Shown here: in pieces, positions 31,417 to 48,927 of the stretch
How positions within the stretch are numbered: position 1 is the stretch's first letter
Layout: every line of letters starts with the position of its first letter
DNA from: Mesobacillus persicus
Lineage (GTDB): Bacteria > Bacillota > Bacilli > Bacillales > Cytobacillaceae
NCBI RefSeq assembly: GCF_900109925.1
Contig: NZ_FOBW01000010.1
Coordinates: 131,710 to 195,709, forward strand
Direction of reading: 5' to 3'
Length of the DNA: 64,000 nucleotides
Translations under genes and position numbers: made by a program
Notes under the pieces: model-generated
Databases searched by the model: none
What the model was told of the DNA's origin: nothing
What the model saw: only the letters and a program-made list of their open reading frames with translations

Positions 31417-31452
31417 TGAGCTCACCTCTTTTATAGTAAGTTGTGATGTAGA

Positions 31453-31959
31453 TTAATAGAATAGTAAACTGAAGGTACTAAAAATTCCAACTCCCCTAGG
31501 AAAGGGTGTGTTTAATAGAATCGGAAATAGAATGACAGCACCTGCTGTAGCTAAGAATCCAGTTAACAAGCCACGTGTCCATTTACCTATTCCGAAAATT
31601 AAGGACAACGCAAAGATAAAGAGTATGGTGGCAATGATAAACCCTATATACTCGAGAAAAAGCGTGTAAACAACGAGTGTCCCAAATAAATAGAAAAACC
31701 TTTTTGGATAGACTAATTCATCCTCATCATTCGCTAAATCTTCGGCCTGTTCATTGGCTGTTTTCACCTGAGTTTCCTTAACACGAAAGGTTTTTATCAA
31801 TAACACGATGGACAGAACTAACATGATTGTCATCAACGCCCCTGGCCATGAACCTGGTGCGATTAAGTCTCCTGATCGGTTTTCGATTTGAAATGACATC
31901 ACGAGGAAAAAGGTTGAAAAAGCAATCATAAAAATGGAAATAGTCCGTTCAAGTAACAT
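31453..31959 (-). CDS. tctB: tripartite tricarboxylate transporter small permease TctB
   Basis: 168-residue, four-helix small membrane subunit. Starts MLLERTISIFMIAF with AGGGGG six bases upstream (the longer frame lacks a site). The helices pair as usual: two, an acidic loop, two more. Between tctC and tctA. Confidence 0.88.
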   Translation of the reverse strand: MLLERTISIFMIAFSTFFLVMSFQIENRSGDLIAPGSWPGALMTIMLVLSIVLLIKTFRVKETQVKTANEQAEDLANDEDELVYPKRFFYLFGTLVVYTLFLEYIGFIIATILFIFALSLIFGIGKWTRGLLTGFLATAGAVILFPILLNTPFPRGVGIFSTFSLLFY

Positions 31960-32032
31960 GTCTTTCCCCCTAATCGTTACAGCCATAATTTAATATAGAA
32001 AGGCAGGTTCACCTGCCTTCCCATGAAATAAC

Positions 32033-33025
32033 TTAGTTTCCTGCTAGAATCTCTTTATACGTTTCAACTAGTTTTTCTAATTCAGCATCATATTCCTCTG
32101 TAGGAAGCCAGCCTTCACGAAGGTGTAAATAACTTGCTTTTTCATATTCCTTATAATCCGGACGATCCTTTGCTTCTTCCAATGCTTTCGCTAAAACTTC
32201 AACAATCTCATCTGGGGTATCTTTATGAACCATAAATCCTCGGCCCTGACCGTCCGTTACATCAATTCCTAAATCAGTTGAGATTGGAACATCTTCAAAC
32301 CCTTCCATTTTCTTGTCTGTAAAGGCTATCAACATTTTAATGGAACCATCCTCAAGTTGAGCAACTGATGGCCCTGGCTCTTCAGCAATTACATCAATAT
32401 GGCCTCCAAGCAATGCTGCCGTCATTTCCCCAGATCCATCAAAGGAAACATAGTTGAAGTCTGTTCCTGTTGCTTTTTCGAATTGTGCTAAAACTAGCTC
32501 ATCAAACCCTTTTGCTCCGGTACCACCGACAGTAATTTCACCTGGTTTTTCTTTTGCTTGGGCAATCAGATCATCAATATCTTTAAACTTCCCATCACTT
32601 TTTACTTGTAATGTCATTGTATCTTTCTGTACACGTCCAATTGACTTAAACACACTCATGTCATTTGGTTCAGATCCAGACGCAATATTAACAGGATGAT
32701 TCGATGTCATTGACCAAATGGTATAACCGTCAGCTGGCTTCCTCGCCACATAATCAGCTGATGGAATTCCTGCTGCGCCTGGCATATTGATAACGTTAAT
32801 ATTTACACCTAGAATTTCTTGTAGCTCCTTTGTAACCGCACGGGCGAAATTGTCACTACCGCCACCAGCTCCAAAGCCAACGACAACTTCAATTTGTCTT
32901 TCTGGGTAAGTACTACCGCCTTCATCACCTTCATTTGAGGTACCAGCTTCATTTGAATTACAAGCCTGCAAGATCATCCCGATTGTTAGTAAAATAATGA
33001 GAAATGAAAACTTTTTAACTTTCAT
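32033..33025 (-). CDS. tctC: tripartite tricarboxylate transporter binding lipoprotein TctC
   Basis: Extracytoplasmic solute receptor, 330 residues, with a lipobox LQAC (Cys22) after a hydrophobic signal. YPERQIEVVVGFGAGGGSDNFAR and INMPGAAGIPSADYVA are the carboxylate-binding loops of the Bug/TctC family. First gene of the transporter operon, directly behind a sigma-54 promoter at 33187-33205. Confidence 0.93.
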   Translation of the reverse strand: MKVKKFSFLIILLTIGMILQACNSNEAGTSNEGDEGGSTYPERQIEVVVGFGAGGGSDNFARAVTKELQEILGVNINVINMPGAAGIPSADYVARKPADGYTIWSMTSNHPVNIASGSEPNDMSVFKSIGRVQKDTMTLQVKSDGKFKDIDDLIAQAKEKPGEITVGGTGAKGFDELVLAQFEKATGTDFNYVSFDGSGEMTAALLGGHIDVIAEEPGPSVAQLEDGSIKMLIAFTDKKMEGFEDVPISTDLGIDVTDGQGRGFMVHKDTPDEIVEVLAKALEEAKDRPDYKEYEKASYLHLREGWLPTEEYDAELEKLVETYKEILAGN

Positions 33026-33186: not shown

Positions 33187-33205
33187 ATGCAATTATCGTG
33201 CCAAC
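33187..33205 (-). promoter_or_regulatory. sigma-54 promoter of tctCBA
   Basis: On the minus strand TTGGCACGATAATTGCAT: -24 TGGCACG, four bases, -12 TTGCA, a full consensus match. It lies 162 bases before tctC and shares 17 of 18 bases with the one at 43809-43826. Confidence 0.85.
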
Positions 33206-33218
33206 CTTGGAAACCTTG

Positions 33219-33295
33219 GTTTCTAGTGAAACTACAACGATTCCAACTTATAAATGTTCCATTTCGAATCACTCTTAACGATAAGCTTGTTTCAA
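33219..33295. promoter_or_regulatory. candidate activator sites upstream of tctC
   Basis: GTTTC-N4-GAAAC palindrome at 33219-33232 and TTGTTTCAA at 33287-33295. TTGTTTCA/TGAAACAA half-sites also lie above the other sigma-54 promoter. They sit 14-90 bases above the -24 box, where an enhancer-binding protein such as the PrpR-type regulator could act. Confidence 0.45.
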
Positions 33296-33317
33296 TCAGG
33301 AACAATTTGTGAGACTT

Positions 33318-34112
33318 CTATGAAAATTTGAAATTTGGTTTCCGCTTTTCTAAAAATGCAGTGACACCTTCACGGTAGTCCTCTGAAACAAACGATTCAA
33401 TAACAAGATTAGAAGTTTCATTCGAGTCCGTTACATCTCCGTGAAGAACACGATTAATAATTGTTTTCGATCCCCTGACAGACATTTGTGCATTTTGGCA
33501 AATCAGCCGCGCGAAATCATATGTTTGCTTTTCTAATTCGGTACTATCAATGATTTTGTTTATTAATCCCATTTGTAGAGCTTCGCCCGCCTCAATAATT
33601 CTTCCAGTAAACAAAATATCCTTTGCATTAGCAGGACCGACTAAATCAACTAGGTTTTTCGTCCCTGGTGTATTGTAAATCAAACCTAGTTTGGCCGGAG
33701 TAATTCCGAAACGGCCCGTTTCATCGGAAAAACGGAAATCACATGCCACAGCAATTTCACAGCCACCTCCGACGCAAAACCCAGAAATCATTGCAATACT
33801 TGGCTTTGGACTTTTAGCAACCTTTTCTTCTAGTACCATCGTCGCATCATTGTATTTCTCTGCACCCTCTGCTGTATAGCGCATCGTTTTAAATTCTCCA
33901 ATATCAGCCCCAGCTGAAAAAGCCTTTTCAGTCGTACTTCTGAATACAATCACCTTAACTTCACGATTTGCATTACACTCATCCACCAAGTGGGCTAAAT
34001 CAAGCCACATGTCATAAGTGAGGGCATTTCTTTTCTCAGGTCGATTAATGTAAATTGTTCCTACCCCATTTTCCACTTGCAAATACACTTTTTTCTGATC
34101 GGTTGTACTCAA
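33318..34112 (-). CDS. enoyl-CoA hydratase/isomerase family protein
   Basis: 264-residue crotonase-fold enzyme. The oxyanion-hole segments are AFSAGADIGEF and GFCVGGGCEIAVACDF. In crotonases a Glu pair does hydration; here one Glu (CEIAV) is visible and the second position is not the canonical one, so hydratase, isomerase or lyase activity is open. TTG at 34112 chosen (AAGGAGG eight bases upstream). Paired with the CoA-transferase, 13 bases upstream, so it likely acts on the CoA ester made by that enzyme. Confidence 0.85.
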   Translation of the reverse strand: MSTTDQKKVYLQVENGVGTIYINRPEKRNALTYDMWLDLAHLVDECNANREVKVIVFRSTTEKAFSAGADIGEFKTMRYTAEGAEKYNDATMVLEEKVAKSPKPSIAMISGFCVGGGCEIAVACDFRFSDETGRFGITPAKLGLIYNTPGTKNLVDLVGPANAKDILFTGRIIEAGEALQMGLINKIIDSTELEKQTYDFARLICQNAQMSVRGSKTIINRVLHGDVTDSNETSNLVIESFVSEDYREGVTAFLEKRKPNFKFS

Positions 34113-34125
34113 TGTTTTAGCCTCC

Positions 34126-35340
34126 TTATTGATTTGAGACACTTTGGGGATATTGCTTGATGACCCCTCTGTCTATTAATTTTTGAATTCTTTCACTCTC
34201 ATACCCTAGCTCTTGAAGGACTGTTTCACTGTGCTGCCCTAAGAGCGGTGCCGGAGTTTTAATTTCTGCTGGTGTATCAGAGAATTTTGTCGGAGAACCA
34301 ATAACCTTCATCTTCCCAATCACAGGGTGCTCCAACTCTTTGACCATATCTCGAGCTAGGTAATGTTCATTATTCATTGCTTCGCCAAAGTTATTTATCG
34401 GCCCAGCTGGCACACCAGCCTGCTCACACTTTTCAATCCAATAAAAAGCTTCCTGTTGTTTCGTGATTTCTTCTATTTCTTGCTCAAGTTCAGCTACATG
34501 CTGATGACGAAGTGAATTCGTAGAGTATCGATTGTCTGTAATCCATTCAGGTTTTCCAATCACTTGAGTACAAAACTTTTCCCAAGTTCGTTGGTTAGCA
34601 CAACCAATCATCATATAGGCATCTTTTGCTTTTATTGCCTGATAGGGTGCGGACACACGGTGTCTATGACCCGTTGCCTCAGGGATTGTTTGATTAGCAA
34701 AGTAAGCTGCCGCTTCCCATGTGAACCATGGCAACCCACTCTCTGCTAGTGATACATCAAGCATCTGCCCATTTCCTGTCTTTAATTTATGAATATAGGC
34801 AGCTAAGATCGAATAAACCGCTGTAATTCCAGCACCAATATCATAAACAGCAATACCGGATTTTAGTGGCCGCCCTCCAGGCTCGCCTGTCATGCTCATC
34901 AATCCCGTCATTCCTTGGGCAACTAAATCGAATCCTCCTTTGTGAGAGTAAGGTCCCGTTTGGCCATAGCCTGAAATGGAACAATAGATGATTCCATCGT
35001 TTAGTTTTTTTACTGTTTCGTAATCAATACCCAATGATTTTGTAACTCCAGGACGAAAGTTTTCAACAAACACATCCGCTCCTTTAATCAATTCATTAAA
35101 GATTTCTTTTCCTTCTTCTGACTTTAAGTCGATGGCAATACTCTTTTTGTTACGATTAATTTGGTAAAAGCAAGTCGACTCTCCGTTGACAAAGGGACCC
35201 ATTTGCCTGGAATCATCTCCGCCTTGAATCTTTTCAATTTTTGTAACGTCAGCACCTAGATCAGCAAGGACCATCGTACAATACGGACCAGCCATGATCT
35301 GTGAAGCATCAAGAATTTTTGCTCCCTTTAGAGGACCCAT
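34126..35340 (-). CDS. CaiB/BaiF type III CoA-transferase
   Basis: 404-residue family III CoA-transferase. MGPLKGAKILDASQIMAGPYC and LGADVTKIE are the N-terminal hallmarks; the catalytic aspartate is probably in AVYDIGAGI. AGGAGG precedes the ATG. It should activate a carboxylate by moving CoA from a donor such as succinyl-CoA or acetyl-CoA. The nearby transporter and hydratase suggest a small imported acid, but its identity cannot be read. A GntR-type operator at 35432-35446 lies upstream. Confidence 0.9.
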   Translation of the reverse strand: MGPLKGAKILDASQIMAGPYCTMVLADLGADVTKIEKIQGGDDSRQMGPFVNGESTCFYQINRNKKSIAIDLKSEEGKEIFNELIKGADVFVENFRPGVTKSLGIDYETVKKLNDGIIYCSISGYGQTGPYSHKGGFDLVAQGMTGLMSMTGEPGGRPLKSGIAVYDIGAGITAVYSILAAYIHKLKTGNGQMLDVSLAESGLPWFTWEAAAYFANQTIPEATGHRHRVSAPYQAIKAKDAYMMIGCANQRTWEKFCTQVIGKPEWITDNRYSTNSLRHQHVAELEQEIEEITKQQEAFYWIEKCEQAGVPAGPINNFGEAMNNEHYLARDMVKELEHPVIGKMKVIGSPTKFSDTPAEIKTPAPLLGQHSETVLQELGYESERIQKLIDRGVIKQYPQSVSNQ

Positions 35341-35431
35341 TAAGAAAACCTCCTATAATTTTGAAAGATGAACCTTCCACGTAACTATTTTCTGGGGTTT
35401 TTCCCCGTTTCTATTTTTTCACCTATATATA

Positions 35432-35446
35432 TGTATACTGTATACA
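35432..35446. promoter_or_regulatory. palindromic operator upstream of the CoA-transferase
   Basis: TGTATAC-T-GTATACA, a perfect palindrome. The same 7+1+7 site with an A in the centre occurs above the GntR gene at 36420-36434, and the flanking TATATATA is also shared. Confidence 0.7.
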
Positions 35447-35590
35447 GAATACAATATCAATTTTAACGAGATGGATTTTAAAAGTCAATATAATTATCTA
35501 AAAATTTTATATATTTAATCAATTGCGAGAGGCCAGCATTTTTGGAGGTAACTGTGGAATCAAATGGAACGCGAAGCACATATAACGGAA

Positions 35591-35642
35591 CAAAAAAAGA
35601 CTGTAGCTAAGCTCGATTATTTATCGAGTTTGTCTACAGTCT
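35591..35642 (-). terminator. terminator after the GntR gene
   Basis: GACTGTAG...CTACAGTC with an inner CTCGAT / ATCGAG stem; on the minus strand followed by seven Ts. Confidence 0.85.
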
Positions 35643-35672
35643 CAAGCATTTCAGAGGAAATGACTTTTTTGT

Positions 35673-36320
35673 TTATAAATCTTCTAATCCTCTTTTTTGA
35701 TCATTTAACATATGGGTTTCAATGCACTGAATGGATTTCTCAACATCCCTAGTTTTAACTGCTTCAAAAATGCTTCTATGCTCATGATAGATATCCATAT
35801 TATTTTTCGCTTTTTTGTTAATGTTTGCACGATAAATCAGAAGTAACGAACGCACATAATTCAATAGTTGAATCATTCTAACGTTAGGACAATAATTCAT
35901 TAAACATTCATGAAATTGTGTATTAGCCTCTAATATTTTATAAGGATCTTCCTCTTGAATCGCCTTCTCTGATTCTAATAGAATGGATTCAATTTTAGGA
36001 AAGTCTTCCTCTGGAATTAAACCTACAATTGATTTAATTACTTCTTTTTCTAAGACTATACGGGTTTGGTAAAGATCTAAAAAGTCATGTTTATTAATTT
36101 CTACAATCTTCATTGTTGTATGGTCCTGAATTATCAAACCTTCAGATTGGAGTTGCCTTAATGCTTCTCTGAGTGGTGTTCTACTAATCTCATATTGTTC
36201 AGCTAGTTTAGACATGATTACTTTCTCACCTGGTTGGAGCTTACCTGTCACAATCAGTCTTTTTAACTCCTTGTAGGCTTGCTGATATAGAGGTTCTGGA
36301 AAGGTTAAAGCCAACTTCAT
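35673..36320 (-). CDS. GntR family regulator, FadR/FCD type
   Basis: 215 residues. N-terminal winged helix LKRLIVTGKLQPGEKV...YEISRTPLREALRQLQSEGLI, the GntR hallmark, followed by an all-helical FCD ligand domain with the metal-binding pattern (D in LYQTRIVLEKE, H in HECLM, H in YHEHRSIFEA, H in IETHM). It probably represses itself and the CoA-transferase/hydratase genes through the shared palindrome at 36420-36434 and 35432-35446; the ligand is likely a carboxylate. Confidence 0.9.
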   Translation of the reverse strand: MKLALTFPEPLYQQAYKELKRLIVTGKLQPGEKVIMSKLAEQYEISRTPLREALRQLQSEGLIIQDHTTMKIVEINKHDFLDLYQTRIVLEKEVIKSIVGLIPEEDFPKIESILLESEKAIQEEDPYKILEANTQFHECLMNYCPNVRMIQLLNYVRSLLLIYRANINKKAKNNMDIYHEHRSIFEAVKTRDVEKSIQCIETHMLNDQKRGLEDL

Positions 36321-36419
36321 CCCTCGCTTTCTTTTGAAGAAGGGCTTTGATAAAGAGGTATGTTGATATCCGACTCCAATTTGTCTTTTACCAAAGCACT
36401 TGAATAAGTTATATATATA

Positions 36420-36434
36420 TGTATACAGTATACA
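36420..36434. promoter_or_regulatory. palindromic operator upstream of the GntR gene
   Basis: TGTATAC-A-GTATACA, perfect palindrome, about 100 bases before the GntR start; twin of the site at 35432-35446. Confidence 0.7.
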
Positions 36435-36608
36435 ATAAATATAATCCCCTTTGTAGCAGTTGTCAAACCACAGTTAGCGCCTCCTTTGTGCCCCTTTCAC
36501 AAATTACGACCCGGATAATAGGTTTAAACATAACTATTATATTGAACCTTAAGATTAGGGTGTTTAGTAACCAGTGTAAGTAATATTCACATACCAACAG
36601 GGGTATTT

Positions 36609-36728
36609 ATTCCTAGTACAGGGAATATATATTCTCGTACCAGGAATATAACGTCTCTTACCGGGAATATAACGTCTCTTACCGGGAATATAACGTCTCT
36701 TACCGGGAATATATCGAAGTAACCAGGA
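36609..36728. repeat. 21-bp minisatellite
   Basis: About six units of 21 bases in non-coding DNA; the core CGGGAATATAACGTCTCTTAC is identical in three consecutive units and diverged at both ends. On the minus strand it reads as YIPGKRR repeats, but that frame has a weak GTG start and no support as a gene. Confidence 0.85.
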
Positions 36729-36790
36729 GAAAACACCCCAGCGCACCCTCTAAATTGTCCATTAAGGTTAAAAATACCCCGCAAGTTAGA

Positions 36791-36828
36791 GAAAAAAAGC
36801 CTCATTTCCTATGAAATGGGGCTCTTTT
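36791..36828. terminator. terminator below glcF
   Basis: AAGCCTCATTTC / GAAATGGGGCT stem, T or A runs at both sides. The minus-strand glcF transcript would end here after a 150-base trailer. Confidence 0.7.
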
Positions 36829-36980
36829 GATTGCTTTCTATGAAAAAATTTGGTCATTTTAGCAAGTTTCCGATACAAACGGTGCTTCGTGAACAATTCG
36901 CGAATGGCCTATGCCTGTTGCCTCGCCCTTTTCTAGTACAACAATATCATCCGGTCGAGAGTCGGTGTGCGTTGTTCTGA

Positions 36981-38348
36981 TTAGGAAGGGGACTTACTCT
37001 CTGCACGGTCAATTGATTCTACTAAATAATCGACCACATGCTTTGTTTCAATCACCTTTTCCATACCTTCTTTATGGACTCCTAATTTCATTTGCAAATA
37101 ACAACCTGGATTGGCGGTTATTAAGACCGCAGAATCTGTTTCTTTCACTTTTTCCATTTTCTTATCCAAGATTTCATTTGCTAATTCTGGTTGAAGCATA
37201 TTATAAATACCAGCAGAGCCGCAGCAATATTTCTTATCTGGAAGCTCAACATATTCTACATTAGGAACGGTTTTAACTAGTTTAGCAGGTGCATCCTTCA
37301 CTTTCATTACATATTGCAAATGACAGGAAGGCTGGTATGTGACACGTTCACCGCGCCCAACTGTTGCTGGCATCTCACCTTTTTCATGAACAATTTCACT
37401 AATATCACGAATTTTACTTGAAAAGCCTTTCGCCCGCTCGAGCCATACCGGATCATCACGGAAAAACTCTTCATACTCTACTAAAGCCGCTCCACAGCCG
37501 CCTGCATTCGTAATAATATAATCAACCTTCGCCTCTTCAAACGCTATGATATTTGCTTTAGCCAACTCAATCGATTTGTCTGTTTTCCCGCTATGATGGT
37601 GCAATGCACCACAGCAAACTTGCGATTTCGGCGTAACAACGTCAAAACCCGTCTTTGATAAAAGTTTAATAGAGTTATCATTTGTTTCCCTGAACATCAT
37701 ATCCATAAGACATCCTTGAAAGAACGCTACCCTTCCTCTCGAATCTCGTTTCTCATTCGCCCGCGGGGTAAATTCGGGATGGTGCTTACGCTTCGAAGGA
37801 GGTAAAATATCAGGCATAATTCTTTCCATTTGCTGCATTTGTTCCGGGAAGAACTTCATTATTCCAATTGCTCTGGTCACCTTCTGCAAGCCACTCTTTT
37901 GATACATCCATAATAAATTTCCAACTTTATTTAGGTTCTTTTGATCAGCAAGGACCTTATCAAATAGGAATTCTTTTACATTTCGTACAGACTTTGCTTG
38001 TTTTTTTATATCAACTTGGTTCGTATCTAACTTCACGCTCTTCTCATGAAAAGAATCCATCTCTACTGCTGCAGCAATTTGCTCTTTTGCTACCATAACA
38101 ATATCCGGAACCTGGACATCCATCGGACAGGCATCAACACAAGCTGAGCAGAGAAGGCAGCGATCCAACTGATCCTTGATTTCTTGATTTACTGAGATAG
38201 TTCCTTCAAGTAACGCACGGGCCATTAACACCCGTCCTCTAGGTCCATCTGCCTCTCGTCCTGTAATATTTAAGGTAGGACAGACACCACGACAGGCACC
38301 GCAACGCACGCATGTATACATTGACTGTTCAGGTGTAAGTAATTTCAA
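36981..38348 (-). CDS. glcF: glycolate/2-hydroxyacid oxidase iron-sulfur subunit GlcF
   Basis: 455 residues. Two N-terminal 4Fe-4S motifs, CVRCGACRGVCP and CLLCSACVDACP, and two C-terminal CCG-type domains, CCGALHHHSG and CCGSAGIYN. It carries electrons from GlcD to the quinone pool or another acceptor. TTG start with GAGGTGAAATCGT upstream. Last gene of the operon that starts with the aminotransferase. Confidence 0.92.
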   Translation of the reverse strand: MKLLTPEQSMYTCVRCGACRGVCPTLNITGREADGPRGRVLMARALLEGTISVNQEIKDQLDRCLLCSACVDACPMDVQVPDIVMVAKEQIAAAVEMDSFHEKSVKLDTNQVDIKKQAKSVRNVKEFLFDKVLADQKNLNKVGNLLWMYQKSGLQKVTRAIGIMKFFPEQMQQMERIMPDILPPSKRKHHPEFTPRANEKRDSRGRVAFFQGCLMDMMFRETNDNSIKLLSKTGFDVVTPKSQVCCGALHHHSGKTDKSIELAKANIIAFEEAKVDYIITNAGGCGAALVEYEEFFRDDPVWLERAKGFSSKIRDISEIVHEKGEMPATVGRGERVTYQPSCHLQYVMKVKDAPAKLVKTVPNVEYVELPDKKYCCGSAGIYNMLQPELANEILDKKMEKVKETDSAVLITANPGCYLQMKLGVHKEGMEKVIETKHVVDYLVESIDRAESKSPS

Positions 38349-38370
38349 ACGATTTCACCTCATTCCCTCT

Positions 38371-39807
38371 CTAGTTAGGCAGTGCCATTTTCCCTGGATT
38401 TAGGATATTGTTTGGATCAAGTGTCTTTTTTATAGCACGCATGATGTCCATCGCCGGACCATGCTCTACATCCATATACTTCGCACGCACAATTCCAACC
38501 CCATGTTCAGCTGTTGTCGTGCCTTCCATTTTTATCGCCAGATCATGGATATCATCGATCATTTTTTGAACATTTTCCATTTCAACTTCGTTATTGCTGT
38601 TTACAACTGGTCCTGTATGCAAATTTCCGTCACCTACATGGCCATAGATTCCGCAAACGATTCCATATCGGTCTGCTATATTATGAATCTCCCTTAATGT
38701 TTCGGGAAGTCTTGAAATCGGAACACAAATATCCTCGCCACCATAAACCCGGAAACCTCCTGGCTTTAACAAACCAACAGCAGCACCTACCAATTTTCTT
38801 GCCTGCCAAAGTTTTTCACATTCTTCTGGTTCATCACTGAATTTTATATAACTCGCATACTTTTCAACGACTTTCTTTAAGCGGGTCACTTGAGAGGAAA
38901 CCTCTTCTTTCGCTCCATCCACTTCAAACACAAGAATCGCTTCATTATCAATAGGCAGATTTAATTCGGGTTTCATCATATTCACTGCTTTCGTACAGTT
39001 AAAATCCATGATTTCAATCGCAGAGGGCTGGAGGCCTGAAGAAAACACCGCATTAACCGCTGCTCCTGCATCCTCTAGTTCCTTAAAAGAACAAAGGACA
39101 ATTCCCCTTGTCACTGGAAGAGGCAATAATTTTAACCGCAGTCGAGTAACAATGCCTAGTGTCCCTTCTGAACCAATCATCAAATGCGCTAAGTCATAAC
39201 CAGAAACCGATTTTAACGCTTTTGAATGAGCGCCACCGGTCACAATGACATCTCCTGTCGGAAGCACGACTTCCATTCCAAGAACATAATGTCTGGTTAC
39301 CCCGTATTTTACCGCCCTAAGTCCACTCGAGTTATTTGATACCATGCCACCAACGGTACACATATTGGCACTCCCTGGATCTGGGGGAAACCTTAAACCA
39401 TATGGTTTGAGTGCTTCATTCAAATCATTTTGAATGACACCTGGTTCAATCATTACCTGCATATTCCGATGATCAATATCTAAAATCCGATTCATTTTTG
39501 AAAGGTCCATCATAATCCCGCCCTTTGTTGAAACAGCACCACCAGTTTGACCAGTTGCTGCCCCTCTTGGATAAACAGGGATTTTATACTCATTGGCAAG
39601 CTTCACACATTCACTAACTTCTTCCGTCGATAAGGCAATAACCGCAACTTCTGGTTTCCTAGGATTCAATTGTGTTTCAAAGGATGCATCATAGGAATAG
39701 GTAATCATATCGGTGTTATTCGTTAAAACTCGGTCCTCACCGAAGATTTCCGTTAATCGGGATATTACTTTCTTATCTAAAGGAGGTCGCGCCATCGTTT
39801 CTGTCAT
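38371..39807 (-). CDS. glcD: FAD-linked 2-hydroxyacid dehydrogenase GlcD
   Basis: 478-residue FAD enzyme (PCMH-type FAD domain plus FAD-oxidase C-terminal domain). The FAD-binding stretch YPRGAATGQTGGAV and the C-terminal GDGNLHTGP and EHGVGIVRAKY are typical of glycolate/D-lactate dehydrogenases. It oxidises a 2-hydroxy acid to the 2-oxo acid; with GlcF downstream, glycolate is the default. Sequence alone does not exclude D-lactate, malate-type acids or sulfolactate. AAGGAG precedes the ATG, only 12 bases after the regulator gene. Confidence 0.92.
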   Translation of the reverse strand: MTETMARPPLDKKVISRLTEIFGEDRVLTNNTDMITYSYDASFETQLNPRKPEVAVIALSTEEVSECVKLANEYKIPVYPRGAATGQTGGAVSTKGGIMMDLSKMNRILDIDHRNMQVMIEPGVIQNDLNEALKPYGLRFPPDPGSANMCTVGGMVSNNSSGLRAVKYGVTRHYVLGMEVVLPTGDVIVTGGAHSKALKSVSGYDLAHLMIGSEGTLGIVTRLRLKLLPLPVTRGIVLCSFKELEDAGAAVNAVFSSGLQPSAIEIMDFNCTKAVNMMKPELNLPIDNEAILVFEVDGAKEEVSSQVTRLKKVVEKYASYIKFSDEPEECEKLWQARKLVGAAVGLLKPGGFRVYGGEDICVPISRLPETLREIHNIADRYGIVCGIYGHVGDGNLHTGPVVNSNNEVEMENVQKMIDDIHDLAIKMEGTTTAEHGVGIVRAKYMDVEHGPAMDIMRAIKKTLDPNNILNPGKMALPN

Positions 39808-39819
39808 AAATATTCTCCT

Positions 39820-41712
39820 TTATGAATTATTTATTTTCCGCCATAATGTTGTCCGGCCAATTCCTAAAATTTTTGCTGCTTCTGTTTTATTTCCATTCAC
39901 TTGATTCAATACTTCGAGGATGTACTCGCGTTCATATTCTTGAAGTTTCCCTGTATCTTGTTGCTCTCCGTTTTCTTCCTGATTAGTTTTCAGTTGGAGA
40001 AAGTCCTTTCCACCAGCAAGCATGACCGTTTCCTTGCTGATAACTTCATCTGGGGACAAAATCATTGATCGTTCAACTATATTTCGAAGCTGACGAATGT
40101 TACCTGGCCAATGATATTGCTTAAGGATTTCCATTGCTTCAGGAGCAAATCCGAAGATTTCTTTTTGGATATTTGGCTCTAGCTCTTCAATAAAGTGTTC
40201 GCATAACAAAGGCAAATCCTGTATTCTTTGACGTAAAGGCGGGATAGGAATATCCAAAATATTCAAGCGGTAATAAAGATCTGCCCGGAACTTTCCTTCC
40301 TCGACCATAACCTCAAAGTCACGGTTTGAGGCAGCAATTACCCGAATATTGATGGGAATAACCCTTTCGTCGCCCAGACGCATCACTTCACCTTCTTGAA
40401 GAACCCTTAAAAGTTGCGCCTGAACGGACTCTGCTAATTCACCAATTTCATCGAGAAAAATGGTTCCCTGATGGGCTAATTCAAAGAGACCCGTTTTTCC
40501 TCCCTTGCGCGCTCCCGTAAATGCACCATCTACATACCCAAACAATTCACTTTCGAGTAAATTTTTCGGAATAGCGGCGCAGTTTACTGCCACAAAGGGT
40601 CCATCTGAGCGTTTGCTTAGGCTATGAATTAAATGGGCAAAGACTTCCTTTCCCACTCCTGTTTCGCCTGTCAATAAAACCGTCGAATCTACCTGTGAAT
40701 ACTTTTTTACCTTATCAATCGCTTTTTGATACGATTTACTTTCGCCGACAATATTCTCTAGCTCGTATTTCGTCACATGGCCACGATGTAATAATTTCTT
40801 TCGAATTTCCTGTTCCTGCTGCTGAAGCTTTTGGAGTTCTTGGAAGGTACATACGGCACCAAATACTTTGTTCTCATGTAGAATCGGGATTCGATTGGTA
40901 ATGATTTTAACGCCATTTTCATCCTGAATTCGATTTAGTTCCTCTTTTCCGGATAAAATTACCTTTTTCATTCTGGAATTTAGCAAAATATCGTCAATCC
41001 GTTTGCCAATTACATTTTCAAACTGGATGCTGAGAATCCGGTGAGCGGAAGGATTGCAGACGGTAATGATGCCGTTTTCGTCAACAGCGATCACACCATC
41101 AGCAATAAAATCCAGAATGGCTTGCAGCTGTTTCGTCCGTTTCGCTTCTGTACGTCGCACATCAAGTATGCTCTTAGCCTCTTGAATTGCTTGGATTACT
41201 GATTCTACACCGGATGTAAGCACAACCGTCTTAACATTAGGGTCATTTACTTTGTTAACGTAGACACTTTTACCAATTAGAACATCAATCTTACGACTCA
41301 CCAGTGTTCTAACGGCACTTTCTACTTGATCAATCTTGTCGATTGTATACTTCTCTATTGATAACCCTAGTGCCGCTTCTATTGCTTCGACTCCTTGAAG
41401 GACATCTACAGTATCTGCAATTCCAATTTTCAGCCCGTATTTTCTCGCTTCGGTTATGGTTCGCAATAAGTCATAGCCTGTTATCGGAATTTGAACGACC
41501 GGTATATTGAGTGTTGATTCGGTCATTTTTGCCCCTACAGTTCCTCTACTAATAATGACCTCTGTACCACTTTGTTCAAGTTGTTTAGCGATGGAGATTG
41601 CATTATCAAAATTTATTTTTTTGATTATGAAACTTTCCCCGGTTCTACTACAAGCTTCCTCAGCAACCGGTATGATTTCATCGATGGGAGCTAGAATAGC
41701 GATTTTAGACAT
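39820..41712 (-). CDS. sigma-54-dependent activator, PrpR N-terminal type
   Basis: 630-residue enhancer-binding protein. N-terminal PrpR-type sensor (periplasmic-binding-like, about 1-175), a PAS domain (about 195-300, ILDFIADGVIAVDENGI), AAA+ domain with Walker A LTGETGVGKE, the sigma-54 contact loop GAFTGA and Walker B GTIFLDEIGE, and a Fis-type helix-turn-helix at the end (GNKTEAAKILGIGRTTLWRKI). ATG at 41712 chosen (AGAGGTG upstream). It sits between genes read from one of two sigma-54 promoters in the island and is the obvious activator of both. Confidence 0.93.
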   Translation of the reverse strand: MSKIAILAPIDEIIPVAEEACSRTGESFIIKKINFDNAISIAKQLEQSGTEVIISRGTVGAKMTESTLNIPVVQIPITGYDLLRTITEARKYGLKIGIADTVDVLQGVEAIEAALGLSIEKYTIDKIDQVESAVRTLVSRKIDVLIGKSVYVNKVNDPNVKTVVLTSGVESVIQAIQEAKSILDVRRTEAKRTKQLQAILDFIADGVIAVDENGIITVCNPSAHRILSIQFENVIGKRIDDILLNSRMKKVILSGKEELNRIQDENGVKIITNRIPILHENKVFGAVCTFQELQKLQQQEQEIRKKLLHRGHVTKYELENIVGESKSYQKAIDKVKKYSQVDSTVLLTGETGVGKEVFAHLIHSLSKRSDGPFVAVNCAAIPKNLLESELFGYVDGAFTGARKGGKTGLFELAHQGTIFLDEIGELAESVQAQLLRVLQEGEVMRLGDERVIPINIRVIAASNRDFEVMVEEGKFRADLYYRLNILDIPIPPLRQRIQDLPLLCEHFIEELEPNIQKEIFGFAPEAMEILKQYHWPGNIRQLRNIVERSMILSPDEVISKETVMLAGGKDFLQLKTNQEENGEQQDTGKLQEYEREYILEVLNQVNGNKTEAAKILGIGRTTLWRKINNS

Positions 41713-41833
41713 ATACACACACCTCTAACTTCTCTATTATTTAGACAATCCTTATCTTTATTTTAAACGATTGTACAATAATGTTAAGAAAAATTAGAAA
41801 ATTATCTGTATAAAGTTCCTATTTATTTTTGAT

Positions 41834-42556
41834 TCATACCTTTTGATTGAGGATATGTTGAGCTTTAATTTTAACAACACTTTCAACTTGACCTAGTGGA
41901 CCAGAAGGAGAGATGATAGCGACCGTACCTCCTAGTTCGTCTAGTTGTTTAATCAAGCTTACTCTTTCCCCTTCATCTAGTTGGCTTATTACTTCTCCAC
42001 CGAAGATAATTCCCCAGCCTGCCAAGCTATCATTGAAGTAGCCTCTTAAATAGTCACAAATTGCATCGACATCCGCGGTACCCTTAAACCTCCCGCTTAA
42101 TTCAACATAAATACTTTCTGGAATGGTCATCTGCATTTTGCCCGTTGCTAAACATTTAGCCATTCCTGCAGGAGAAATCTTAATGGGAATGGAACCAAGT
42201 GCCCCTAATTCAGCAACTCGGTCATCCACTCCAGCAATGACTTTTCCTTCAAGTAAATCAACTTGTTTTTTCAAGACTTGAATTCTATTAGTTCCATGAA
42301 TAATTGGTAAGCCTTTCGCATTCGAAAACTGCCTTATATCTGACCAATGCTCAGATGCGATAGCAGTCTCATTGGCCATAATCATACAGCGAGGATGCTC
42401 GATGGCTTTGTATCCTAATTCGCAAAAATTCCTTATGACATTTAAACTATTTTCTCCTGATAGAAAAAGAATATCGGGTGTCAGTAAGTTTCGTTCCCCT
42501 GGGGCAGTCTGGTCCAGTTGGCTACACCGGGCTAGATTTATTTCAATAATATTCAC
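41834..42556 (-). CDS. aconitase/LeuC-like protein without the cluster cysteine motif
   Basis: 240 residues. The second half follows the LeuC/aconitase pattern: DDRVAELGALGSIPI (110-124), MAKCLATGKMQMTIPESIYVELSG (132-155), a DAICDYLRGYF segment and a G-E-V-I...L-D-E-G-E-R-V-S-L-I segment. In active dehydratases the first of these reads GDSHT(C/S)T-x-GA-x-G with iron-ligand cysteines; here it is DDRVAELGALG with none, and the other ligand cysteines are also missing. It is less than 60% of LeuC length. I infer a non-catalytic or altered member. GTG start with AAAGGGGAG upstream. Confidence 0.7.
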   Translation of the reverse strand: MNIIEINLARCSQLDQTAPGERNLLTPDILFLSGENSLNVIRNFCELGYKAIEHPRCMIMANETAIASEHWSDIRQFSNAKGLPIIHGTNRIQVLKKQVDLLEGKVIAGVDDRVAELGALGSIPIKISPAGMAKCLATGKMQMTIPESIYVELSGRFKGTADVDAICDYLRGYFNDSLAGWGIIFGGEVISQLDEGERVSLIKQLDELGGTVAIISPSGPLGQVESVVKIKAQHILNQKV

Positions 42557-42589
42557 CTATCCCACTCCCCTTTAGGAAAGGTACACATA

Positions 42590-43756
42590 TCAGCAGTTTG
42601 GATTTTCAAGCCAATGTCTTTGTGCTCCGGAGACCCCAGCACCAAGCTCTACTTCATGACCGCTTTTCTTTAATGCTAACTCCATCGCAGCAAACATTTT
42701 TAACATATCAGCTGCGTCGGTATAGCCCATGTGTCCAAGTCTTAAAATTTTATTTTTCACCTTGCCCAGTCCTCCACCTAGTGCAATGTGAAACTCTTCT
42801 CTCATCATCTTGCGAAAAGCGTCGGCATTGTCTAATTTGACAGCAGTCAAAGTCGGACTCGCAGCAGCATCTTCTACTAATAATTCTAGACCCAATGCTC
42901 TGACCCCAGCTCGTGTCATATCACGAAGGGCTGCATGGCGCTTGTATTCGTTTTCTATCCCACCGCCACGTTCAATCATGTTACAAGCTTCTCTTAATCC
43001 ACAGACAAGGGCGATATTCGGTGTGTAAGGCGTGCCCAATCCTGATTCAAGTCCTTTTTTGTATTCTTTAAGATCAAAGTAGAAGGACGGACATTGATGG
43101 TTTTCAATCACATTCCAAGCTTTCTCACTCATCGTGATCAGCGCAATGCCTGGAGGAAGCATTAATGCTTTCTGTCCACCTGTTGCAACGATATCAATTC
43201 CCCACTCATCCATATAAAGTGGTGCTCCAACAATAGAACTTACAGCATCAACCATAAAAATTGCTTCTGTTTCCTGAACAATCGCTGCGATTTCTTTTAT
43301 ATTGTTAAGTGCTGATGTAGAAGTTTCACAATGGGTTGCAAAGACTGCCTTTGCTTCCGGGTTTTCTTTCAATGCTTTTCGAACATCTTCAGGATCTACA
43401 ATTTCTCCCCACTCAGCATCGACGCGAACAACTTTACAACCAATATGATTGGTAATGCCTTGTAGGTATTCCCCAAAATACCCGACAACACAAAGAATAA
43501 TGGTATCATTAGGTCCAATCGTATTAATAATAGCCGTTTCTAGCGCTGATGCCCCACTAGCAGTTAAAGGAATAACTAGATTATTTGTCTGGAAAATCAT
43601 CTTCGATTTTTCAATGGTTTCTTGTAATACTTCCTGAAAAGCAGGGTTTCGATAATCCATCATTGGATGATCAAAACTTTGCTGCATAGCAATCTGAATT
43701 TCTTTAGGTACTTGCACTGGTCCCGGTAATCTTAAGTCCATTTTTTCTGAAAACAT
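42590..43756 (-). CDS. class V aminotransferase, alanine/serine-glyoxylate type
   Basis: PLP enzyme of 388 residues that would transaminate glyoxylate or a similar 2-oxo acid. RLPGPVQVPKEIQ starts the family; HCETSTSALNNIKEI, MVDAVSSIVGAPL and ATGGQKALMLPPG (Schiff-base lysine) follow. ATG at 43756 chosen for AAGGGGAG seven bases upstream. First gene behind the sigma-54 promoter at 43809; glyoxylate made by GlcDF would be its likely substrate. Confidence 0.9.
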   Translation of the reverse strand: MFSEKMDLRLPGPVQVPKEIQIAMQQSFDHPMMDYRNPAFQEVLQETIEKSKMIFQTNNLVIPLTASGASALETAIINTIGPNDTIILCVVGYFGEYLQGITNHIGCKVVRVDAEWGEIVDPEDVRKALKENPEAKAVFATHCETSTSALNNIKEIAAIVQETEAIFMVDAVSSIVGAPLYMDEWGIDIVATGGQKALMLPPGIALITMSEKAWNVIENHQCPSFYFDLKEYKKGLESGLGTPYTPNIALVCGLREACNMIERGGGIENEYKRHAALRDMTRAGVRALGLELLVEDAAASPTLTAVKLDNADAFRKMMREEFHIALGGGLGKVKNKILRLGHMGYTDAADMLKMFAAMELALKKSGHEVELGAGVSGAQRHWLENPNC

Positions 43757-43808
43757 TCTGACTCTCCCCTTAGTGAATATAATTTTGAAAATTCTATACT
43801 CTCTCTTA

Positions 43809-43826
43809 ATGCAATTATCATGCCAA
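43809..43826 (-). promoter_or_regulatory. sigma-54 promoter of the aminotransferase operon
   Basis: On the minus strand TTGGCATGATAATTGCAT: -24 TGGCATG, four bases, -12 TTGCA. It lies 53 bases before the aminotransferase start. Confidence 0.85.
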
Positions 43827-43870: not shown

Positions 43871-43925
43871 GTTTCACGTTCCATTACGGAACAACTATTG
43901 AAACACATGCGCTCCTATTGAAACA
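43871..43925. promoter_or_regulatory. candidate activator sites upstream of the aminotransferase operon
   Basis: GTTTCA at 43871, palindrome GTTCC-ATTAC-GGAAC at 43878-43892, and two direct repeats CTATTGAAACA at 43895-43905 and 43915-43925, exactly 20 bases (two helical turns) apart. Spaced 45-115 bases above the -24 box. Confidence 0.5.
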
Positions 43926-44099: not shown

Positions 44100-44873
44100 T
44101 CAAATCAACTTTAATCCACTAATTAGAATCATTAGAGCCATAATCGCTCTTAATGGTTTGGCAGGTATTTTAGCTGAAAAGGTACTTCCAATAATGACAC
44201 CTGGGATGGAGCCCAATAATAAGTTTACCATTAGCAGGTAATCTACATTGCCTATTCCTGCATGCATAAGACCCGCTGCCGTGACTAGAAAGAAAGCGTG
44301 GGCAATATCGGTTCCCACCAACTCCGTCGGACTCATTCTATATAGATACAACATTACCAATGCAAATAATGAGCCAGAACCGATTGACGTTAAACCGACT
44401 AAAAAGCCTAGTACTGCCCCAACCACGATAGTCAAAGTTTTTTTCTCCTCTAATGGCTTTAATTGAATTCGATTTGATTCAAATCTTCCCTTCATGAAGG
44501 TTTTAACCAAGGTAGCTAAAGCAACTAAGATTAAAACATAGCCCAGCGCGTGTTTAATTACAGCTTCCTGGTTATTAAAAAATGAATCAAATAGTTGCAG
44601 CATCCCTACCGCTATTATTGCACTTGGAATACTTCCAATTGCAAGGTATTTCATTAGCTTTAGGTTGATTGTCTTTTGTTTCCAATGCTGCACAGAACCG
44701 AAAAATTTGGTTATAGAATTATAAGCAAGATCGGTTCCCACTGCAATGGCTGGATTTATCCCCATTAAGACTAAGACAGGAGTTAACAGGGCCGCTCCCC
44801 CTACGCCTGTTAGTCCGACCATAAATCCAATAAATAGGCCCATTACAATCATTCCGATACTCATTAGGTGCAC
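44100..44873 (-). CDS. TauE/SafE family anion transporter
   Basis: 257-residue membrane protein with about eight helices and the duplicated family motif (GFMVGLTGVGGAALLTPVLV near the start and GFLVGLTSIGSGSLFALVML after the middle). Members export sulfite, sulfoacetate or other organic anions. Given the sulfite- and sulfolactate-making genes about 2 kb away, sulfite or sulfolactate transport is a fair guess, but glycolate-type anions are possible too. Confidence 0.85.
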   Translation of the reverse strand: MHLMSIGMIVMGLFIGFMVGLTGVGGAALLTPVLVLMGINPAIAVGTDLAYNSITKFFGSVQHWKQKTINLKLMKYLAIGSIPSAIIAVGMLQLFDSFFNNQEAVIKHALGYVLILVALATLVKTFMKGRFESNRIQLKPLEEKKTLTIVVGAVLGFLVGLTSIGSGSLFALVMLYLYRMSPTELVGTDIAHAFFLVTAAGLMHAGIGNVDYLLMVNLLLGSIPGVIIGSTFSAKIPAKPLRAIMALMILISGLKLI

Positions 44874-45125
44874 ACTCCTACAAATTCCTTTTTTTTACAT
44901 ACCACCAATTTATGAATAGGTTATATGCCTTGTGACCTAATAACAGGATTGAGGAGGGCCCAAATTGTAAAAAGCAAAGGGCTGTGTTTTTTTGTAAAAT
45001 CCCAAGCCGATTTTAACGTGAGAAATAGTTATCCATGCTCTCCTCTCTAAAATAAATGCCTTTTTACAGTGAACCAAAGCTTTAACCATCATAGTTATAT
45101 CAAATGTTAGATTCAGAAAAAGACA

Positions 45126-45156
45126 AAAAAACAAGCCCTATTTATACGGGCTTGTT
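45126..45156 (-). terminator. terminator after the 93-residue gene
   Basis: AACAAGCCC / GGGCTTGTT stem; seven Ts follow on the minus strand. Confidence 0.9.
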
Positions 45157-45168
45157 CCCAGCGTATGT

Positions 45169-45450
45169 TTATTCTTCCTTTTGATCTTTTAATGTGATCT
45201 TTTTACAACCGACATATAGGCAGGATAGTATATCTAATCCCGGCTTTGCTTTTGCTAACCCTTTTATATAAGGTGTAACCAAATCCTTGAAATCCTCTCC
45301 AACGCCTTCCTCTTCTAAGATGCCGTATACAAAGAGTTTCTTTTCATCAAATAAAAACGCCACGTTTCCAACTGCCTTATTCTTTGTGTCCACTACATTC
45401 AACACTTGAAACTGTGGGGTAATAACCTCAGGTGAAAAGTAAATTTGCAT
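45169..45450 (-). CDS. unknown 93-residue protein downstream of the MFS gene
   Basis: Starts MQIYFSPEVITPQF; ATG at 45450 chosen for AAGGAGTGGG upstream. Predicted alternate strands and one helix, two cysteines near the end (LSCLYVGCKK). It starts 12 bases after the MFS stop, so the two are probably one transcript. Function not recognised. Confidence 0.65.
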   Translation of the reverse strand: MQIYFSPEVITPQFQVLNVVDTKNKAVGNVAFLFDEKKLFVYGILEEEGVGEDFKDLVTPYIKGLAKAKPGLDILSCLYVGCKKITLKDQKEE

Positions 45451-45462
45451 CAATCCCACTCC

Positions 45463-46707
45463 TTACGTTAACTGCAATTTTTCGAACAATGTATCGCTAT
45501 TTTCCGATGGCTTTGCTTTTTTAACATGAATTAACATGAGACATAATAACGCGACGATTAATGTTAAACCCGCTGTTATGAGAAACATTCCGGTCCGATT
45601 CCACGCCATTAACGCACCGTATATCGGTGGACCAATTGCCACACCTAAAAATCTTACAGACCCATACAACGAGGTAACAAACCCTCTTCGGTCCGTAGGA
45701 ACCGAACCTGTAATAAAACTATTGATACATGGTAATGCCAACCCAGTTCCAATACTACTGACAACGAGGACAGAAAAAAATGGAACCAGACTTTTAAACA
45801 AAACCAGTGCCGAGAAAGAAGCAGTCATTAATAATAGTCCTAAAACAATGAGTGATTTCATAAGCCCCATGTTTTTCCCAATTTTACTACCGGTGATATA
45901 AGAGGTGGTTGTCATGAACAATAAAGGAATCGCTAAAATCGCGCCTTTTAGAACTCCATCAATCTTATAGTTCGTTTCTAAAATATCGGAAATATAAAAT
46001 AAAATCCCAAATAGAGTAAATAAACAAGTTGCACCGGTTAAATAGGCAGCAAATAACCATCGACCTTCTGTTTTAAAAACAGAAATCAACCCTTTTACAT
46101 ATTTACCAACTGGCGGTGGTTCTTTTTCTTTCTTCTTTTCTTTGATAAAAAAGATAGCAAGCAATACAGAGAGGGCACAAAAAATGGGAAAGGCAAAAAA
46201 TGCTGCATACCAAAAGAGCAGAGCTAGAAGAGAGCCAATAATTGGACTAATGACTTTTCCAAATCCATTTGAGGCTTCAACAATCCCTAGCACCTGACTT
46301 TGCTCTCCACCTTTGAATAAATCTCCCGCCAATGCCATCGCAATCGGTGCTGTTCCAGCAGCTCCAATTCCTTGGGTAATCCTCCCTGCTAAAATCCATG
46401 GATAGGCATTGGAGAACCAGGCCGCTGCCGCACCAGCTAATACCCCACCGATTCCGTATAGAATGAGAGCTGGAATGATGACAGCTTTACGGGAAAATCG
46501 ATCCGACAAATATCCAAGGATTGGTATGGAAATAGCTGCAGCAACCGAAAAAGCTGTAATGACTAAACTAACTTGGAACTGAGATATCCCTAGCTCCGAT
46601 TTCATTTGGGGAAGAACCGGTATAAGCATTGAGTTCCCTAGCACGAGAATTAAAGGAATTGAGCCGATTGCTGTTATCGTCAGACCCTTATGTTTTTGCT
46701 TTGACAA
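45463..46707 (-). CDS. MFS transporter, 12-helix drug/metabolite antiporter type
   Basis: 414 residues. Motif [14 protein letters not shown] after helix 2 and motif C-like [17 protein letters not shown] are typical of drug:H+ antiporters. TTG at 46707 chosen from AGGAGT upstream (the GTG at 46716 is too close to that site). Divergent from the sulfolactate operon; an efflux role for a product of that operon is possible but unproven. Confidence 0.82.
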
Positions 46708-46785
46708 TGAAAGCACACTCCTAACTGAAAGAATAAGCTTTCCTATTTTTTGGAGGAACCGTTCGAATTATACAAGGGCAAACGC

Positions 46786-46812
46786 CTATATTTCTTGAAA
46801 ATAGCCTATAAT
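46786..46812 (+). promoter_or_regulatory. possible SigE-type promoter of the sulfolactate operon
   Basis: ATATT at 46788-46792 and CCTATAAT at 46805-46812 resemble the SigE boxes (ATATT and CATACAAT); the spacer of 12 is short by one or two. Confidence 0.3.
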
Positions 46813-46874
46813 TTACACAATCGCCCAATATTTGAATAATCTATCCTAGAAAAATGGAGGAGGGCACTTTCCCT

Positions 46875-48165: not shown

Positions 48166-48180
48166 AGAGGAGAGCTGAAA

Positions 48181-48891: not shown

Positions 48892-48927
48892 TGCAAGAGC
48901 ATTTTAGAACAAGAGGAGGAAATTGTT

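Follow-up and report, generated by a model that had tools for sequence, protein, structure and literature searches.

The locus considered here raises the question of whether two very similar -24/-12 promoters and a PrpR-type activator encoded near them belong to one sigma-54 regulon, and what a shortened LeuC-like protein is doing within it. It lies in a 64,000-nucleotide stretch of Mesobacillus persicus DNA (assembly GCF_900109925.1, contig NZ_FOBW01000010.1, positions 131,710 to 195,709), called the window below and numbered from its first letter; the genome is a draft of 4.64 Mb in 40 contigs. Two minus-strand units are concerned, unit A with the tct transporter genes and unit B with the aminotransferase operon, and genes for a GntR/FCD regulator, a coenzyme A (CoA)-transferase and a crotonase lie in between. 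An earlier note, made from the letters alone, had tied transporter, 2-hydroxyacid oxidase, aminotransferase and LeuC-like protein into one system. From the promoters, their common upstream site, the conservation of both, the gene content and the single sigma-54 gene, all read from the sequence, we consider it very probable that the two promoters and the one PrpR_N activator make up a single regulon.

Two sigma-54 promoters and one PrpR_N activator

The elements on which this reading is built are as follows.

43826-43809, minus strand: -24/-12 promoter of the aminotransferase operon, TTGGCATGATAATTGCAT, kept in 16/16 relatives' loci
33204-33187, minus strand: -24/-12 promoter of tctCBA, TTGGCACGATAATTGCAT, kept in 15/15 relatives' loci holding the tctC start
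39820-41718, minus strand: sigma-54 activator with PrpR_N, PAS, AAA+ (GAFTGA) and Fis-type helix-turn-helix domains
43877-43893, minus strand: predicted activator site TGTTCCGTAATGGAACG, 68 bp upstream of the aminotransferase -24 element
33288-33304, minus strand: predicted activator site TGTTCCTGATTGAAACA, 101 bp upstream of the tct -24 element
43895-43925, minus strand: two further TGTTTCAATAG half-sites, 20 bp apart, read as CTATTGAAACA on the plus strand; more half-sites occur in relatives

Both promoter sequences are present where the earlier note had put them, ahead of tctCBA and of the aminotransferase operon and both on the minus strand; the tct site itself is right, but the span of 33187-33205 given for it is one base too long. 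Both fit the GG-N10-GC form of -24/-12 elements. Within the window the pattern TGGCAYN5TTGCW matches at these two promoters only, compared with 0.11 matches expected by chance, and two matches occurred in 0 of 100 shuffles. Genome-wide, the strict form TTGGCAYN5TTGCW has 12 matches versus 3 for a backwards control pattern; in their 3-kb contexts, 10 stand directly upstream of a correctly oriented gene and two (C16:47481 and C25:19639) within coding frames. All 12 strict matches happen to fall on one strand of their contigs, and a reverse-complement search excludes a fault of the search. The genome search for TTGGCAYGATAATTGCA that had been suggested earlier returned six more copies at one or two mismatches, none of which we retained as a further promoter copy: five (L003, L004, L006, L007 and L008) lie within frames, L006 less certainly, having only a short frame on the site's strand or one on the opposite strand, and the sixth (L005) precedes another gene near another activator.

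Loss of the promoters in related genomes had been named beforehand as an outcome that would speak against a shared system; instead, both promoters and the palindrome described below are kept across two genera. At tctC the -24 letters read TGGCA in 5 and CGGCA in 10 of the 15 testable relatives' loci (the stretch of L075 stops short of tctC). The GATAA spacer varies between relatives while the -24/-12 letters stay. The one-base difference between the two promoters was therefore correctly observed, but the near-identity of their spacers is not conserved and we rejected it as evidence; since the spacer is free to change, the close match is partly coincidence.

The genome has one sigma-54 gene (sigL) and eight strong sigma-54 activators, a single one of which lies in the window, bearing out for this class the earlier claim of a sole enhancer-binding protein there. 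Its position inside the second operon, also claimed, recurs in 16/16 relatives' loci (with a broken frame in L076). This activator carries GAFTGA and a Walker (ATPase) motif, is the only protein genome-wide with a PrpR_N domain, and misses the equivalog cut-offs of both PrpR (TIGR02329; 391.1 of 499.2 bits) and PrdR (444 of 795 bits). For all seven remaining strong activators, a strict sigma-54 site lies no more than 6 kb away on the same contig.

Unit B runs from the class-V aminotransferase through the LeuC-like protein, the activator, GlcD and GlcF to a hairpin and T run. The five genes keep this order in 16/16 neighbourhoods of relatives, together with the CoA-transferase and crotonase; GntR was seen in 15 of them (not in L066), as was tctC, and the tct genes remain adjacent to the operon. 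One of these loci, L076 (G049), has broken frames in several genes and was kept out of the table of nonsynonymous-to-synonymous rate ratios (dN/dS) and of alignments A1 to A3. The core order is also found in Peribacillus glennii (L079) and Ammoniphilus resinae (L090), and, minus the LeuC-like gene, in G186 (L114). Aminotransferase orthologues occur in 18/193 family genomes, 17 of them at 87% identity or more and that of G186 at 73%; one homologue search was queried with an alignment of 10 of the 17 aminotransferase sequences.

A common upstream site and a probable separate GntR unit

The elements that the earlier note had seen above both promoters are present, and the two CTATTGAAACA copies 20 bp apart are real (43895-43905 and 43915-43925); what had been recognized, however, were half-sites of a palindrome, TGTTYC-N5-GRAACA, which is evident in the aligned promoters. 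The comparison of half-sites across relatives that had been proposed thus yielded a palindrome common to two genera. We scanned 150 bp upstream of 17 aminotransferase and 16 tctC promoters, window included. All 17 aminotransferase promoters carry the palindrome at two mismatches or fewer (11 at one or none), always at position -67 to -70, and so do 13/16 tctC promoters (10 at one or none); there its position is near -101 to -103 for Mesobacillus-group loci and near -135 to -149 for those of the other group. The window has it at both promoters, with no mismatch at tct and one at the aminotransferase operon; it is perfect before the aminotransferase gene of P. glennii and A. resinae and has two mismatches in G186. 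At one mismatch or fewer, it is found at 0/8 other sigma-54 promoters of this genome.

Several observations weigh against a shared activator site. The distance to the tctC promoter is unequal between the two groups (-101 versus about -147), and no palindrome is recognizable at tctC of L069, L071 and L072 (3/16) or at a second sigma-54 site in Ammoniphilus. One of the eight control promoters, L029, carries the palindrome at two mismatches, the core is at background genome-wide (13 strand hits versus 12 for the backwards control), and the pattern was derived from the very promoters that were scored. Besides that of unit A, there is one promoter-like strict site without a nearby activator, C38:5403, before a DctP-looking gene (by inspection). 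Finally, the conservation counts are not independent, given the close kinship of many of the relatives. The weight of the palindrome rests on its fixed position and on the control promoters.

The genes between the two units are associated with an operator of another kind.

36412-36433, minus strand: predicted operator GTATACTGTATACATATATATA, ahead of the GntR gene
35424-35445, minus strand: predicted operator GTATACAGTATACATATATATA, ahead of the CoA-transferase gene
35673-36320, minus strand: GntR/FCD regulator
34126-35340, minus strand: class III CoA-transferase (CaiB family), probably part of a GntR unit in this genus
33318-34142, minus strand: crotonase-family protein, probably part of a GntR unit in this genus

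The 22-bp operator, GTATACWGTATACATATATATA, stands in near-identical form before the GntR and CoA-transferase genes, twice in the window at a chance expectation of 0.00; the form shared by the middle genes can be written TGTATACNGTATACA. In the Mesobacillus group, TGTATACAGTATACA precedes the CoA-transferase gene in 5/5 loci including the window (at most one mismatch) and the GntR gene in 4/5 (at most two mismatches; the exception, L075, has 4). Among loci of the other group, it stands before GntR in 10/11 (at most three mismatches; L072 has 6) and before the CoA-transferase in 0/12 (at least five mismatches). Before tctC, the aminotransferase gene and the activator gene, the best match has four or more mismatches in every locus. 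GntR, CoA-transferase and crotonase thus probably form a GntR unit of their own in this genus, outside the sigma-54 regulon, and because of this separate operator the cluster is better described, at least here, as two systems, a sigma-54 regulon and a GntR unit. Of the single system first proposed, what stands is a two-promoter regulon with conserved promoters and palindrome, with the LeuC-like protein as a member of the operon; what does not is that protein as a LeuC-type hydro-lyase, whose requirements it lacks.

Could the two promoters nevertheless be independent? With eight strong activators in the genome, the tct promoter might be read by another of them and the PrpR_N activator might serve the aminotransferase operon only, a division that would suit the missing or weak sites at 3/16 tctC promoters and the differing distances. 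Against it speak the perfect tct site in the window and the sites at 13/16 tctC promoters, which the eight promoters near other activators, or assigned to them, do not match at one mismatch or fewer; moreover, the remaining seven activators each have a sigma-54 site closer at hand, and the tct genes stay beside the operon in relatives. We regard separate units as improbable. Even less probable, to the point of being hard to credit, is that the -24/-12 letters only resemble promoters or mark minor ones and that sigma-A promoters and the GntR regulator are mainly in charge: a conserved GntR-type operator does lie within the same cluster, but it was not found before tctC or the aminotransferase gene, the -24/-12 elements are kept in all tested loci while the spacers drift, and sigma-70-type matches in the region number 37, compared with 43.6 in shuffles.

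If, as we favor, both promoters belong to one regulon, binding and activation may be pictured as follows. The PrpR_N-type activator would bind TGTTYC-N5-GRAACA upstream of each promoter, its PrpR_N and/or PAS domain would sense a carboxylic-acid metabolite as inducer, and sigma-54 RNA polymerase would be opened at both promoters. One would then provide the importer TctCBA and a hexapeptide-repeat protein, and the other the aminotransferase, the truncated LeuC-like protein, GlcD, GlcF and the activator itself, which implies autoregulation. An activator inside its own sigma-54 operon, together with an importer operon bearing the same site, fits substrate-induced catabolism.

A LeuC-like protein without its iron-sulfur domain

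41834-42556, minus strand: LeuC-like (aconitase-fold) protein, shortened, with no iron-sulfur (Fe-S) domain and no DSH motif

This protein matches MJ0499 across residues 1-220 and, in a structure model with a predicted local distance difference test (pLDDT) score of 87, aligns to it with a query template-modeling (TM) score of 0.84; it is predicted to have an aconitase-family fold. It stops just ahead of the position of the Fe-S domain, and DSH/DGH, CTN or CxxC were seen in 0/29 rows of alignments A1 and A3, which overlap in genomes. With the DSH motif and the three Fe-S cysteines missing, identity as a LeuC-type hydro-lyase was rejected. An alignment in which 7/9 candidate full-length proteins passed the filter had put its GQVES tail at their far C terminus; in view of full-length relatives that carry, e.g., GEVEATYRI immediately past the equivalent strand, simple C-terminal truncation is the better reading.

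Free-standing proteins of this type occur in at least 16 of 192 other family genomes (rows down to an E value of 1.8e-24), the weaker rows being mostly long LeuC-type proteins among the matches listed. In thin samples of wider taxa they were found, besides the own genome, in G053 of 397 genomes of the order (plus one full-length protein) and in G702 of 398 of the class (plus 12 full-length proteins), and among the matches listed from 398 genomes of the phylum all others were full-length. The best of these full-length relatives is that of G1301, and that of G1099 ranks eighth of the others, again among the matches listed; both have DGH instead of DSH and retain the Fe-S cysteines. In G1301 (L145) the full-length protein adjoins a PrpR_N activator, with genes for a class-V aminotransferase, a GntP carrier and a member of the beta-eliminating-lyase family in the neighborhood; a search of this stretch for -24/-12 elements gave no match. 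In G1099 (L152) a PrpR_N activator gene is followed by a sigma-54-like site, which falls within the next frame when that frame is read at its longest, and by oxoacid:ferredoxin oxidoreductase genes; the full-length protein lies five frames downstream of the activator, before a MatC carrier. In neither stretch did a simple motif search reveal a small subunit. For most of the other high scorers, the neighborhood is a different type of cluster that includes a LeuD-looking gene (by inspection); L148, identical to L146 in its start sequence, was not included in the neighborhood mapping. A tree of the N-terminal parts, with long branches and a small filtered sample, places the truncated proteins together (ultrafast bootstrap 100), joined by those of G1301 and G1099 (94). 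It was built from 24 of 37 candidate full-length loci that passed a length-and-motif filter and is, because of that filter, biased against full-length copies without the motifs.

Next to its neighbors the gene is strikingly divergent. Its median pairwise identity is 41%; that of the other four unit B proteins lies between 79 and 90% (aminotransferase 89%), and that of GntR is 69% (medians over 120 pairs, 105 for GntR and tctC; 15 pairs were printed). In the printed pairs, dN/dS ranges from 0.19 to 0.50 (computable in 13/15), compared with 0.01-0.08 for the aminotransferase, 0.06-0.13 for the activator and up to 0.30 for GntR. By these estimates the LeuC-like gene evolves far faster than its neighbors, yet under purifying selection.

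Is it then a decaying, functionless remnant on its way to being lost? The loss of the catalytic motif and the Fe-S domain and the low identity would fit, as would the C terminus of L074, which is unlike all others, as past a frameshift. The gene is also absent from G186, where promoter, aminotransferase, activator, GlcD, GlcF and GntR are all kept; since the rest persists there, the core system can do without it. On the other side, the dN/dS values are accompanied by invariant residues and a confident fold model, the gene stands beside 17/17 aminotransferase orthologues of at least 87% identity in the family, and it is one open frame in 15/16 relatives (L076 is broken, and L074 has its odd tail) as well as in Peribacillus and, at about 30% identity, in Ammoniphilus. 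We therefore hold decay to be possible but rather unlikely. In the mechanism that we propose, the protein would derive from an Fe-S hydro-lyase subunit, be unable to do that chemistry and be kept by selection for another role. Aconitases double as regulators elsewhere (IRP1), so that its role is a fair question. It is tempting to speculate that it is a non-catalytic partner of the PrpR_N activator, as co-sensor, anti-activator or scaffold, tuning the sigma-54 regulon, although this specific assignment is a long shot, less likely than decay. If true, a catalytic hydro-lyase subunit would have shrunk to an aconitase-fold domain that binds a ligand or a protein without catalysis. This reading draws on the tree, in which the truncated protein groups with single, full-length LeuC-like proteins from two distant Bacillota (L145 and L152), each encoded near a PrpR_N activator. 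The truncated protein is a naturally occurring example of an Fe-S subunit that lost its cluster domain and stayed beside a transcriptional activator.

Gene content, chemistry and known systems

The remaining features of the two units are the following.

42590-43756, minus strand: class-V aminotransferase, 388 amino acids
38371-39807, minus strand: GlcD-like FAD-linked 2-hydroxyacid oxidase subunit
36981-38348, minus strand: GlcF-like Fe-S subunit
36790-36823, minus strand: hairpin then T run past glcF, probable terminator (read by eye; the automatic listing gave the same hairpin on the plus strand only)
32033-33025, minus strand: TctC substrate-binding protein
31453-31986, minus strand: TctB-like small membrane subunit (position and inspection; place kept in 6/6 extended relatives)
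29908-31425, minus strand: TctA-like large membrane subunit (position and inspection; place kept in 6/6 extended relatives)
29355-29882, minus strand: hexapeptide-repeat protein (gamma-carbonic-anhydrase/CaiE/PaaY type, by inspection), 25 bp past tctA

The aminotransferase more plausibly starts at the ATG of position 43756, which has a ribosome-binding site, than with the listed 416-amino-acid open reading frame, which runs into the promoter. The gap between glcF and the GntR gene holds a tandem repeat of 4.6 copies of a 21-bp unit (TACCGGGAATATAACGTCTCT) at 36617-36713. Unit A runs from its promoter through tctC, tctB and tctA to the hexapeptide-repeat gene, which is probably its last gene; in 6/6 extended relatives this gene lies behind tctA and is followed by an ATP-binding cassette (ABC) ATPase gene. 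In three extended Cytobacillus-group stretches, CoA-transferase and crotonase lie between tctC and tctBA, and L160 has a second tctC.

The transporter type varies by lineage: in Ammoniphilus a tripartite ATP-independent periplasmic (TRAP)-type transporter (by inspection) takes the place of tct, behind the second sigma-54 site and after the operon, and G186 has a MatC-type carrier further downstream. This variation between TctCBA, TRAP-type and MatC-type carriers suggests a small di- or hydroxycarboxylate as substrate. GlcDF would then oxidize the 2-hydroxy group of the imported acid or its product to a 2-oxo acid, which the aminotransferase would convert to an amino acid, while the GntR-controlled CoA-transferase and crotonase would serve a CoA-linked branch. 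We put this hydroxy-acid chemistry forward tentatively, at somewhat less than even chance. The aminotransferase is closest to glyoxylate-using class-V families and reaches 271.3 of the 650 bits of the BhcA cut-off (NF045640); GlcD is closest to glycolate oxidase and lactate dehydrogenases, with 406.8 of 567.9 bits for TIGR00387. As no enzyme passes an equivalog cut-off, we name no substrate.

Beyond unit B, at 44100-50076, lie genes for a TauE-type exporter and a major facilitator superfamily transporter and, on the other strand, a phosphosulfolactate synthase gene (46854-47660), after which come phosphoglycerate-mutase-like, CysH-like and Sat-like genes. The synthase gene and the exporter had pointed to sulfolactate as what the operon processes. 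In the fetched stretches, however, this neighborhood accompanies the cluster in 4/4 relatives of the same genus and 0/12 of the other genus, it has no strict sigma-54 site, and the sulfolactate genes run the opposite way; sulfolactate was accordingly rejected as the likely core function.

Several related loci deserve mention. Beside the operon of G186, a divergent second glcF/glcD pair (40 and 39% identity) and another gene lie at 5033-9031 of L114. Cytobacillus firmus NBRC 15306 (L092, 8748-9964) retains the sigma-54 promoter and the first 62 aminotransferase codons, followed by an ABC ATPase gene, and is a natural deletion of the cluster. In an Alicyclobacillus metagenome-assembled genome (MAG; L091, 760-5431), a sigma-54-like site lies near the start of a CoA-transferase, crotonase, CoA-transferase and aminotransferase series without GlcDF. 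A Gracilibacter MAG (L089, 9832-11040) has a solitary 87%-identical aminotransferase gene in an unrelated context with no strict sigma-54 site, reflecting either transfer or a binning error. Among viral contigs, 62 stretches fit a pattern and none was a relative; the 26 plasmid records were all below 60% identity and, by name, apparently ordinary aconitase-family proteins.

How does the system compare with those already known? Enterobacterial PrpR activates the propionate (prp) regulon, and the likeness extends to PrpR_N, the sigma-54 activation domain, the Fis-type helix-turn-helix and an activator gene beside its targets. In contrast, the activator here has an extra PAS domain, its gene lies inside the operon that it presumably activates, and the cluster has no prp genes. 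GlcD and GlcF belong to the glycolate oxidase families and are joined by an aminotransferase akin to glyoxylate aminotransferases, but the operon has no separate GlcE and the equivalog scores fall short. The LeuC-like protein resembles the large subunit of isopropylmalate isomerase (MJ0499) in predicted fold and over the N-terminal part, and differs from it in its early end and missing motifs; a literature search on Fe-S-less or truncated LeuC proteins found nothing specific. The open-access literature, a scope outside which most subscription papers fall, yielded no description of this regulon, and isopropylmalate, aconit-, threonine aldolase and GntP do not appear in the main text of a survey of Clostridiales sigma-54 regulons (PMC6615313). 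That survey gives a promoter consensus, TTGGCATNNNNNTTGCT, that resembles the promoters described here and TGT-N10-12-ACA sites for fifteen activator groups, of which TGT-N11-ACA in the present palindrome is an instance; it also has activator genes beside their targets and PrpR_N among the sensor domains, in other organisms and with other gene content (PMC6615313). Regulons of this design are well known (PMC6615313, PMC3162934). On sequence grounds, the present one is thus a new regulon of a known type with one puzzling component, the truncated LeuC-like protein. It offers an activator, a predicted binding site and a target set for a predicted sigma-54 regulon shared by Mesobacillus, Cytobacillus and a small number of other Bacilli, in which a carboxylate importer and an oxidase become testable as one system.

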